A DNA stretch of 64,000 nt from Bacillus sp. F19 (GTDB lineage Bacteria > Bacillota > Bacilli > Bacillales > Bacillaceae), in NCBI GenBank assembly GCA_023823795.1, contig CP085710.1:248001-312000 (forward strand), read 5' to 3'. Numbering within the stretch: the first letter of the stretch is position 1; each line of letters starts with the position of its first letter. The notes below the pieces were generated by a model. That model did no database searches. It was not told the DNA's origin and saw only the letters and a program-made list of their open reading frames with translations. A program made the position numbers and the translations under genes. Positions 34,923-45,793 of this stretch are shown piece after piece.

Positions 34923-36551
34923 ATGGCTAAAGACATTAAATTCAGTGAAGACGCTCGCCGCGCAATGCTGCGCGGGGTTGATGCACTTGCTAATGCAGTT
35001 AAAGTAACGCTTGGACCAAAAGGGCGCAACGTGGTTCTTGAAAAGAAATTCGGTTCTCCGCTTATTACAAATGACGGTGTGACAATTGCAAAAGAAATCG
35101 AGCTTGAAGATGCATTCGAAAACATGGGTGCAAAGCTTGTTGCTGAAGTTGCAAGCAAAACAAATGATGTTGCCGGTGACGGAACAACAACTGCAACGGT
35201 TCTTGCTCAGGCAATGATCCGCGAAGGTCTTAAAAACGTAACAGCTGGCGCTAACCCAATGGGTATCCGAAAAGGTATTGAAAAAGCTGTTATAGTTGCA
35301 ACGGAAGAATTAAAAGCAATCTCTAAACCAATCGAAAGCAAAGAATCCATTGCTCAAGTAGCTGCAATTTCTGCTGATGACGATGAAGTGGGCCAATTGA
35401 TTGCTGAAGCTATGGAGCGCGTTGGAAACGACGGCGTTATCACAATCGAAGAATCAAAAGGCTTCACTACTGAGCTTGAAGTGGTTGAAGGTATGCAATT
35501 CGACCGCGGATATGCATCTCCTTACATGGTAACTGATTCAGATAAAATGGAAGCTGTCCTTGACAACCCATACATCTTAATCACAGACAAAAAAATCACA
35601 AACATTCAAGAGATCCTGCCTGTATTAGAACAAGTTGTTCAACAAGGCAAGCCTCTATTATTGATTGCTGAAGATGTTGAAGGTGAAGCACTTGCTACAT
35701 TAGTAGTGAACAAACTTCGCGGAACATTCAATGCAGTAGCTGTTAAAGCTCCTGGATTCGGCGACCGCCGCAAAGCAATGCTTGAAGATATCTCAGTTCT
35801 TACTGGCGGAGAAGTGATCACTGAAGATCTAGGCTTAGATCTTAAATCAGCGAACATCACTCAACTAGGCCGCGCTTCTAAAGTTGTTGTGACAAAAGAA
35901 AACACAACAATCGTTGAAGGTGCTGGAGAGTCTGACAAAATTGCAAGCCGCGTAAAACAAATCCGTGCTCAATTAGAAGAAACAACTTCTGAGTTTGATA
36001 AAGAAAAATTACAAGAGCGTCTAGCTAAATTAGCTGGCGGTGTAGCAGTCATCAAAGTTGGTGCTGCAACTGAAACAGAATTAAAAGAGCGCAAACTCCG
36101 CATTGAAGATGCATTGAACTCTACTCGCGCTGCAGTAGAAGAAGGCATCGTATCAGGCGGTGGTACTGCCCTTGTAAATGTATACAACAAAGTAGCATCA
36201 GTAGAAGGCGAAGGCGATTTCGCAACAGGCGTAAACATCGTATTGCGTGCTCTTGAAGAGCCAGTACGCCAAATCGCACACAATGCTGGTCTTGAAGGCT
36301 CAGTTATCGTTGAGCGTCTAAAGCATGCTGAAGTAGGAACTGGCTTCAACGCTGCAACTGGCGCTTGGGTAAACATGATCGAAGCTGGTATCGTTGACCC
36401 AACTAAAGTAACTCGTTCAGCTCTTCAAAACGCTGCATCTGTAGCGGCTATGTTCTTAACAACTGAAGCAGTTGTTGCTGACAAGCCAGAAGAAAATGCT
36501 CCTGCAATGCCTGATATGGGCGGCATGGGTGGAATGGGCGGAATGATGTAG
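34923..36551 (+). CDS. groEL: Chaperonin GroEL
   Basis: A 542-residue 60-kDa chaperonin. ATP-site motifs [18 protein letters not shown] and [11 protein letters not shown], and the C-terminal Gly-Gly-Met repeats, are all present. AGGAGGT precedes ATG. Its last 19 bases before the third base of the stop codon (36532-36550) recur exactly at 45775-45793, marking the 3' end as an integration site; the reading frame and protein are kept intact. Confidence 0.98.
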
Positions 36552-36605
36552 TTTGATCTATAAAACCCTATTATATCAAGGGTTTGAAGATTAAAAGCTC
36601 ATTTT

Positions 36606-36627
36606 AGGTGCCGGAAAGGTGCCGAAA
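36606..36627. repeat. Tandem 11-bp repeats beside the left attachment site
   Basis: AGGTGCCGGAA is followed directly by AGGTGCCGAAA. Short direct repeats next to an integrase gene end are often arm-type integrase sites; here that is inference. Confidence 0.45.
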
Positions 36628-36644
36628 CTTTTTCAAAAAGAAAA

Positions 36645-36888
36645 TTAGAGGCTTCTCATGAGGTTCCCAAACTTCTGAGAAGCTTCTTTTTTTCTACCCA
36701 TTGTAATGTGTAAATAAACTTGTGTTGTTGTCCCATCTTCTGTATGACCAAGTCGATCCAATTTGTAGTAATTCAACACCAGCTTCAGCTAAAAGTGAAA
36801 TGTGAGTGTGACGTAATGAATGTGGAGTTAAATGTTTATGAACAGAAGGGGTTTTGTTTAATAAGCTATCCATCCTGAAGATAATCAA
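36645..36888 (-). pseudogene. C-terminal fragment of a tyrosine integrase
   Basis: The minus strand reads RMDSLLNKTPSVHKHLTPHS and onward through SLRHTHISLLAEAG, the catalytic His-x-x-Arg box of phage/ICE integrases. A 2-nt loss near 36764 shifts the frame; in the other frame it continues DRLGHTEDGTTTQVYLHITM (second His and catalytic Tyr) and stops at 36645. The N-terminal two thirds are missing here. Beyond 36880 the sequence belongs to an amidase fragment. Its 3' end is 95 bp from the left attachment repeat, the usual place for an int gene. Confidence 0.85.
36646..36693. terminator. Hairpin at the integrase 3' end
   Basis: GGCTTCTCA pairs with TGAGAAGCT and is followed on the plus strand by seven T residues. 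It overlaps the last integrase codons and can also stop groESL transcripts entering the element. Confidence 0.7.
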
Positions 36889-37394
36889 TTATTTGGTGAT
36901 GACGCTAACGATACTGCGGTAAGTGTAGAACTTTGCCGCCCGGGTAATTTTAAAGAGGTATATGACCGTTATGTTTGGTATCATGTGTATCTTTGCAGAA
37001 AATTCGGTTTAGATCCACTTAAGAAAATTGTTCCTCACAGCAAGTTAGATCCTCGCAGACGTACTGATCCGGAAAGTTGGTTAAAGCCTAACGGGGTTAC
37101 TTGGTCACAGTTTATTAAAGAAGTAAAATATTATTATGATAACTGGTCTGTTAAGCCTGCAGCAAATACGACAAAAAAATGAATCTGTTCAAATAAAGAC
37201 AGGCGGTCTATCTCCTGCTATGCGTGAGGAAGTATCCGCTTATTTTAAACAAATAGGTTGGTGGGCTCAGATTCAATTTACAACTGACAAAATGAATCCT
37301 CGCGCATTATCTGGTGGCCTTAGTCCTGCTTATGAGAGCAGAGTTTGAATCATGGTTGAAGCAGCGTAAATGGTATTATGAGATTGTGAAGTAA
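36871..37394 (+). pseudogene. N-acetylmuramoyl-L-alanine amidase remnant (phage-type)
   Basis: The first frame reads EDNQLFGDDANDTAVSVELC and continues to YLCRKFGLDPLKKIVPHSKL and TWSQFI, as in Amidase_2 lysins. After a frame change near 37170 it continues with a wall-binding repeat, GGLSPAMREEVSAYFKQIGW, and after another near 37330 with MRAEFESWLKQRKWYYEIVK, ending at TAA 37392. The N-terminal catalytic part is gone, cut at the junction with the integrase fragment. Such lysins belong to prophages or conjugative elements. Confidence 0.82.
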
Positions 37395-37425
37395 TTGTCG
37401 TAATGTATGAATATCCAATAAATTT

Positions 37426-37455
37426 GGAGGAGGTTTGTCTATCTCCTCCTATATT
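37426..37455 (+). terminator. Hairpin after the amidase remnant
   Basis: GGAGGAG and CTCCTCC pair around a 10-nt loop; the tail TATATTTAATTT is only partly T-rich. Confidence 0.5.
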
Positions 37456-37626
37456 TAATTTAATTGCAAGATTTTTCTTTTTTGTGTCTAGCCGAATAAA
37501 ATTAATCAAAAATCTTGGATGATGTTGAATGTTTGCAAATTGATTTAGTAAAGAGATCGCCTGATCGTAAACTGCAAAGGAAATGCGAACAAGTAAAGTG
37601 TTAGTGCTTGAAGTACTACTTGAACG

Positions 37627-44462: not shown

Positions 44463-44607
44463 TTAAGAAGGAATTTACTTATGAATTTAAAAATAGCACT
44501 CATTTAATGAATGGTTTCTCAGGTTATTGACAAAGAATCCAGAAGAAAATCTAGCTATTTAACTTAATAAGCTTATTGAGCTAAACAGCTAATAGAAGCT
44601 ATAGTAA

Positions 44608-44636
44608 TCTTCAACAATCGGGCCCGTTTGCTGAAT
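44608..44636. repeat. REP-like hairpin, copy 3
   Basis: TTCAACAA-CGGGCCCG-TTGCTGAA is a near-palindrome sharing the TTCAACAATCGGGC arm. In the surrounding 44463-44949 gap there is only a 22-codon hydrophobic open frame (about 44735-44805), not enough to call a gene. Confidence 0.55.
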
Positions 44637-44865
44637 TAATAAAGTATATATAATCAATTAACATTAGCTAAATATAATTATGTTAACTTTAAATTGTAAC
44701 GATGAAGACAACAATATTCTATTGAGGATAGGGTGTGTTAGATAAAATGGTTACTAAAGTGGGCATAGGTTTTTTACTTTTAATGGTGCATTTCTACTTG
44801 GTTTGAGTAGCATCTAAAAATTTTTTATTTTTATATTGTATAACAATTAATTCATATAATCAGAT

Positions 44866-44893
44866 GTCAGCAAAAATAATGCTGACTTTTTTA
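44866..44893. terminator. Terminator before the integrase fragment
   Basis: GTCAGCA pairs with TGCTGAC around AAAATAA and TTTTTT follows on the plus strand. Confidence 0.6.
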
Positions 44894-44949
44894 TTGTGCA
44901 GAACTAGGGACGGAACTACTCAATAACGTAACGAGACCGTTCAATACAA

Positions 44950-45654
44950 CTAACTAGCTAAAATAGGATATGATGATCTTCCACAAAAGGGCTCTAATTC
45001 ACCAGCTCTAAGACCTGTCCATGCTAAAGTTAAAAAGATAACATAATCATCAATTTCACCTTTAGTTTTAGCTGTTTCTAGAAAATCCTTTAATTCATGT
45101 TTTTCTAAATACTTCTCTTCAACTTTTTGGTTCTCTATGTCCTCTACTGTTTTTTTGTCTTTTGGGATAAAAGCATATTCTGTCGGATCAGCAAGAAGTA
45201 AATCTTGTTCTAATGCTCGTTTAAAGATCATTTTTGCCGTACCATGTATACCTGAAATTGTATTATGGGCCAGCTGCTCTTTTTTCTTCAAATCATTTAA
45301 TGCATTCTGGTACATTTTTTTAGTAACATCTTTTATCTTGTAATGAGCAAAATACCGATTCAAATGACCAATTTCATGATTTCTTACACGAATAGTACTA
45401 ATCTTTACGACTGTTTCACTATAGGTATCAAGCCATTCTTGAGCCATATCTTTAAATAAAATATTGTTATCTTCAAATGTTTTACCAGCGGTCTTTCTTT
45501 CAAATTCTTTTAAGGCGTCCTTTGCTTCTTTTTGTTTTAGAAAGCCTTTTTTCACAATTCTGCGGCGAGAACCGGTTTGTGGATCTACGCCATTTTCGAC
45601 AACGTTTATCCAACGCTCACCTTTTTTTGTTTGGTACTTTTTAACATATGCCAT
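44950..45654 (-). pseudogene. N-terminal two thirds of a tyrosine integrase
   Basis: From ATG 45654 (MAYVKKYQTKKGERW, with AAGGTGGG upstream) the product has an AP2-like arm-binding domain (about 1-55), a SAM-like core-binding domain (about 60-165, FKDMAQEWLDTY) and the start of the catalytic domain, ending just after the first catalytic Arg in TGLRAGEL. The next 14 residues are unrelated and lead to a stop. About 150 residues, with the other catalytic residues, are missing; a matching C-terminal fragment on the same strand lies at 36645-36888. Confidence 0.88.
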
Positions 45655-45774
45655 TAAAACCCACCTTGTATACTTCCTCAATATCAGGCAGCTGAATTAT
45701 AAGTTGGCTAACTTCCCATGGTTCCACACCATGTCTAAGGATTCGTTGCTTTATTTGATAAAGATTTAAACCTA

Positions 45775-45793
45775 GAATGGGCGGAATGATGTA
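45775..45793. repeat. Right attachment-site repeat (copy of the groEL 3' end)
   Basis: GAATGGGCGGAATGATGTA is identical to 36532-36550. The following A gives ATG ATG TAA, i.e. a groEL-type end. It lies 121 bp upstream of the integrase start. A small minus-strand open frame across it (45847 down to 45641) is not convincing as a gene. Confidence 0.85.

Follow-up and report, generated by a model that had tools for sequence, protein, structure and literature searches.

The DNA considered here, hereafter the window, is a stretch of 64,000 nucleotides from Bacillus sp. F19 (contig CP085710.1, positions 248,001 to 312,000), in which the chaperonin gene groEL is followed by a 9.26-kb region that begins and ends with the same 19 bp. 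The gene occupies 34923..36551 on the forward strand, is an intact open reading frame (ORF) of 542 aa, and encodes a protein that is 99-100% identical in the matched congeners. Its last codons, together with the first two bases of its stop, make up the left copy (attL, 36532..36550, forward strand) of the core sequence GAATGGGCGGAATGATGTA, and an exact second copy (attR) stands at 45775..45793 on the same strand; the same core is found beside the integrases of relatives. Because the left core is followed by G, groEL ends in TAG at 36551. The right core is followed by A, which gives TAA, and then by GGCTTT; a hairpin resembling a terminator lies roughly 98 bp beyond the core, at about 45892-45929. 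These observations agree with a preliminary description of this DNA, which had proposed an exact duplication of the groEL end at both borders of an island, a right copy restoring a groEL-like TAA ahead of a terminator, and an undamaged chaperonin gene. It had also raised the question of whether the 19-mer is common elsewhere. At up to three mismatches, these two copies are the only ones in the window (0.01 expected by chance), and at up to two mismatches they are the only ones in the 5.59-Mb genome.

Another hairpin, probably belonging to the element, lies directly 3' of the groEL stop (36552..36595, forward strand) and folds with a z-score of -3.09, one of 200 shuffles being as good; the comparable left-end hairpin of Fictibacillus solisalsi is weaker (z -1.58). 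For a 141-base stretch with the right-flank hairpin, the z-score is -2.03, and 8 of 200 shuffles were as good.

Integrase remnants and gene X

Pieces of a tyrosine integrase gene lie on the reverse strand at both ends of the region, as had been noticed at the outset: the left one is C-terminal and the right one N-terminal. The C-terminal remnant (36639..36873), recognized by alignment to the related locus L019 and by a weak match to part of the catalytic domain (Pfam Phage_integrase), is spread over two frames and adjoins groEL in the orientation seen in most relatives. The N-terminal part (44979..45654, within an ORF at 44950-45681) carries the arm-binding and SAM-like domains and was delimited by alignment to L019 and L020. 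Aligned to L019, the two pieces are collinear and non-overlapping parts of one gene, with approximately 283 bp missing between them, and would once have been a single gene of a single element. With the gene split, these bases missing and its C-terminal part in two frames, there is no intact integrase in the window, and the region is therefore not expected to move by its own integrase.

Next to the N-terminal part, and ending at the right core, is the C-terminal stub of a second gene, here called gene X (45665..45774, reverse strand), which is 76% identical to residues 79-115 of its counterpart in L069. DNA homology to L019 stops where the core begins, at 45775; since gene X is cut exactly there, the interior of the element, from gene X to its right end, has been lost. 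Gene X is found upstream of the integrase gene in L018, L019/L069 and L022 and encodes 126-128 aa (16273-16659 and 128 aa in L069). The L069 protein had no match in Pfam or PHROG at the thresholds used, and of the 397 genomes in the order sample 29 have matching proteins, the own genome counted. It might be a directionality factor, which is a guess.

Use of the groEL site by related integrases

The preliminary description had suggested a search for elements with this core at groEL in other genomes, and in many of them the core and an integrase of the same family do lie at groEL. One scan recovered nine relatives of the integrase, seven of which have their C-terminus turned towards groEL with the core in between; the other two, L021 and L024, have the core but no groEL beside the integrase. 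The integrase of Bacillus sp. SD075 matched 91 of the 397 genomes at E 1e-60 or better. Thirty loci among the matches listed comprise 22 with core and groEL, including one (L090) with other DNA between these and the integrase gene, three with the core only, and five with neither, a class that includes L106, where a 29-aa groEL match lies at a distance. Judged by contig positions, the nine relatives and the thirty loci share at least three places (L082/L020, L083/L018 and L084/L021). Two of three further loci from the same genus as the window also have core and groEL.

The site was also approached from the side of groEL, whose 3' ends were obtained from 79 of 81 genomes of the family, leaving out G069 (short groEL match) and G004 (no match). 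An integrase or integrase remnant lies within about 1.5 kb of the groEL end in 28 of the 79 by tblastn, with L227 and L149, which are one place, counted once and with some short matches included (such as 27 aa in L164 and 38 aa in L169), and in 36 by a hidden Markov model (HMM) built from 32 integrases, some of which come from scored loci or genomes (L199, L203 and Bacillus atrophaeus as L063). The groEL end had been mis-set for L164 and L170, so that the HMM scan scored the wrong stretch; both match by tblastn, hence the use of the union of the two methods, which gives 38 of 79, counting the own genome. None of 28 control stretches on the groES side held an integrase or remnant. At the position completing the groEL stop, A was counted 80 times and G once, over 79 loci of which two entered the count twice.

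Elements occupying the site elsewhere

Where a second core could be located, it gives the size of the element: 22.0 kb in F. solisalsi, 43.6 kb in B. atrophaeus NRS 213, 16.5 kb in the congener G002, and 20.0 kb in P. butanolivorans, whose second core has two mismatches. The contents of these elements are varied. That of F. solisalsi carries Rep_trans, TcpC, AAA_10, lysozyme/NlpC, an M78 peptidase and an HTH repressor, with FtsK just under the cut-off, and that of SD075 carries Rep_trans, AAA_10 and lysozyme/NlpC; by these genes both are ICEBs1/Tn916-like elements. ICEBs1 itself integrates at a tRNA gene. Terminase, portal and tape-measure genes (PHROG) were recognized in the occupants of Anoxybacillus tepidamans PS2 and B. 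atrophaeus, together with a major head gene in the former, and both are, on gene content, tailed-phage prophages. The element of P. butanolivorans includes a solute-binding protein as well as an alpha-L-fucosidase-type gene; that of G002 has an FtsK-like ATPase along with a D5-type primase. Three contigs of A. tepidamans carry parts of its element: the two ends of one, 39.5 kb long, share a 95-bp overlap that spans the core, another terminates in groEL, core and the left end of the element, and the third reads from the right end through the core into other DNA, an arrangement that fits a circular or tandem form alongside an integrated one. The core also adjoins the integrase gene in phage GBSV1.

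Core-like sites were also seen in other surroundings. On contig L071 of SD075, type I restriction genes (2977-9866) lie near cores at 10334 and 15350, about 5 kb apart. A P. butanolivorans contig that is not the one with groEL (G087:C17; L040, L048) has core-like sites at 1813688, 1830407 and 1908527, all in one orientation and within 95 kb.

Comparison with the region after groEL in relatives

From 30001 as far as the core, the window and the congener G001 are 97% identical, and at the place where the right core of the window reads TAAGGCTTTAAAGCC, G001 has TAAGGCTTTCCTGAGCC after groEL. The right flank of the window aligned to the post-groEL region of G001 with a score of 67 (best of 200 shuffles, 26) and to that of G058 with a score of 47 (shuffle best, 29). 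These alignments, both above all 200 shuffles, indicate that the DNA to the right of 45793 is the displaced downstream region of groEL, with its terminator-like hairpin (45794..45940, forward strand). The attR flank of F. solisalsi also lines up in a multiple alignment, which was not scored. G001 accordingly has the order predicted in the preliminary description for an island-free relative, namely groEL, core and sequence resembling that after 45793. It is an imperfect empty site, in that about 3 kb of its own DNA lies further on, between two terminator-like stretches after groEL. This additional DNA (L005, 14582-17854) has ORFs of 470 and 227 aa, and the core is not at its far end.

The 8.1-kb block inside the integrase gene

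The two integrase pieces are separated by an 8.1-kb block (36874..44978), whose bounds come from the alignment to L019 and pieces of which match other places in congeners. Its first recognizable feature is a remnant of a phage endolysin/amidase (36901..37182, forward strand; PHROG lysis families, best E 7.5e-10), which has an 83% match in G002 and need not belong to the element. There follows a copy of an IS21-family insertion sequence (38080..40128, forward strand), with istA at 38170-39372 and part of istB at 39575-40123 (NCBIfam transpos_IS21 and IS21_help_AAA), which is 99% identical to another chromosomal copy and for which no target duplication was found by the criteria used. Beyond it lie a helix-turn-helix (HTH)-cupin regulator (40834..41394, reverse strand; Pfam HTH_3 and Cupin_2) and a LysE-type exporter (41503..42084, forward strand; Pfam LysE), which together show 89% identity to a locus of G001. 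A hydrolase of the metallo-beta-lactamase fold (42662..43324, forward strand; Pfam Lactamase_B, with all listed NCBIfam models under their cut-offs) has an 87% match in G055, which belongs to another genus. The last gene encodes an EamA transporter (43578..44462, forward strand; Pfam EamA), for which G001 has a 91% match at another place; G001 also matches about 320 bp of the block at 93%, and the remaining parts have weak matches or none.

Since several of these genes match congeners elsewhere at 83 to 93%, the block looks, by similarity, like displaced DNA of the host lineage rather than DNA of the element. This qualifies the preliminary description, which took everything between the repeats as foreign to the local core order. 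Pfam and NCBIfam scans of the region's 14 distinct ORFs found no conjugation, relaxase or replication genes; packaging, head and tail genes were likewise absent from the scanned ORFs, the endolysin remnant being the only phage-like feature of this kind.

The hydrolase and EamA genes are flanked by hairpin-like repeats around TTCAACAATCGGGCC (42425-42452, 43338-43365 and 44608-44635). Allowing one mismatch, the 15-mer has 42 matches in the genome, some of which are two arms of one hairpin, and 81 matches in G006; a reversed-pattern control gave one match in G006 and none in the own genome. The stretch 42420-42460 folds with a z-score of -4.81, and among the rows listed the strand of the repeat seems to track the replication arm. 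A literature search with part of the repeat returned papers on other subjects only.

Origin of the region and alternative explanations

The most satisfactory explanation, and one that is very probably correct, is that the 3' end of groEL serves as the attachment site (attB) of a broad family of tyrosine integrases and that the window contains the relic of one such element, which has lost its interior and whose integrase gene has been split. Recombination would take place within the 17 to 19 bp or so formed by the last groEL codons and the first two bases of the stop, and would have created the repeat. An incoming element would restore the groEL reading frame by placing A, or in this case G, after TA and would bring its own hairpin, which may take over the role of the terminator, while the original last base of the stop and the original terminator would be shifted to the far end. 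An essential gene can serve undamaged as the attachment site because the element supplies the last base of its stop. Once inserted, the element would have lost its interior from within gene X to the right core, leaving core, integrase gene, gene X stub and core, and the integrase gene would also have been split, with the loss of about 283 bp, by the block carrying the IS21 copy and host-lineage genes. The proposal of the preliminary description that the groEL end is an attachment site is strengthened by the match of the right flank to G001 and G058 and by the integrases of relatives beside the core. Its 9.26-kb island stands as a region bounded by repeats at that site, but is better described as a decayed relic than as an element.

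Several observations weigh against this explanation. The right flank scored hardly above shuffles in G066 (33 against 30) and in G054 (26 against 25), where the flank on the element side scored higher (34), and fell below the best shuffle in G061 (24 against 26). The five of thirty loci with neither core nor adjoining groEL include the window itself. The core pattern was not found near the integrase gene in a B. pumilus plasmid or in phage HB10c2, nor in the phiOH2 record as deposited, which ends just past that gene. Short elements of the form core, integrase, core were found at none of the 79 other groEL ends, of which about 1.5 kb downstream was searched. Lastly, the relic has no right-end sequence of the element, only gene X cut at the core, and the right core need not be the original right end of this element.

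A copy of the groEL end that arose by chance or recombination and has nothing to do with an integrase is a highly improbable account of the 19-bp repeat. The window does lack a working integrase, and much of the DNA between the cores is not recognizable as that of an element, but in many genomes related integrases at groEL have the same core beside them, second cores end long elements, and the core adjoins the integrase gene in GBSV1; the relatives already contradict this view. Tandem accretion is unlikely too, although less so: two related elements would have stood next to each other at groEL, and a deletion would have joined the C-terminal part of the first integrase gene to a stretch beginning in the second, so that the two pieces would derive from different genes. 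Several genomes do have two integrase matches on the same strand some 2 kb from each other (e.g. G229, G168, G210, G092, G203 and G106), and the fact that both pieces in the window are nearest to one subclade is compatible with accretion as well as with a single split gene. The pieces are nevertheless ordered, on one strand and non-overlapping, as expected of one split gene, there are only two cores, and the cut in gene X would need a separate cause.

A special form of the preferred explanation, namely of a decayed groEL-site element, concerns that cut. The integrase would have acted on a core-like place in its own gene X, shed the interior and left a scar of core, integrase gene and core. Homology to the nearest element stops exactly at the core, and at this point gene X of L069 shares 11 of 17 positions with the core, an agreement that has a frequency of 0.0046 among single-base shuffles; L069 was chosen post hoc, however, and the closer piece L117 agrees at 8 of 17 positions and the other aligned copies at 6 to 10, so that a pseudo-core in gene X is suggestive only. 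A deletion by short homology explains the cut equally well, and no similar scar was seen at the 79 ends, which leaves this form rather doubtful. An equally tentative wider proposal regards the groEL 3' end as a docking hub in the Bacillales, comparable to a tRNA gene, at which phages, conjugative elements and satellite-like islands rebuild the stop, and the region between the repeats as a secondary-site scar of core, integrase gene and core that has gathered host genes.

Relation to known systems

The nearest left end and gene X to those of the window are in Bacillus sp. SD075, and in both SD075 and F. solisalsi a close integrase lies at groEL beside the same core. They differ from the window in carrying Rep_trans, AAA_10 and lysozyme/NlpC (TcpC having been tested in F. 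solisalsi), none of which was recognized in the window. Other counterparts are found among phages and staphylococcal islands. The Geobacillus phages phiOH2 and GBSV1 have integrases with 53% identity to that of SD075; these are complete phage genomes, whereas the window holds an endolysin remnant only. In staphylococcal islands, an integrase annotated as that of a SaPI shows 40% identity to the SD075 integrase, and AATGCCAGGAATGATGTAA lies next to it. These islands are mobilized by phages and have genes of their own, none of which was recognized in the window, where island-specific genes were not sought and the integrase gene is broken.

SeCISE48 is reported to insert at the groEL 3' end, where its att site overlaps the final 18 bp of the gene and leaves the gene unaltered, and islands with similar integrases occur in other staphylococci (PMC8125051). 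The prophage phiOH2 is described as flanked by GroES/GroEL genes (PMC8303945). Attachment of this kind at groEL was thus already known from these two accounts, and the addition made here is the breadth with which the site is used in the Bacillaceae. For mobile elements of this family the results offer a rule for drawing boundaries, from the stop codon of groEL to the next copy of the core. As 38 of the 79 groEL ends in the family have an integrase or a remnant of one beside them, the groEL site is an important point of entry for prophages, conjugative elements and islands.

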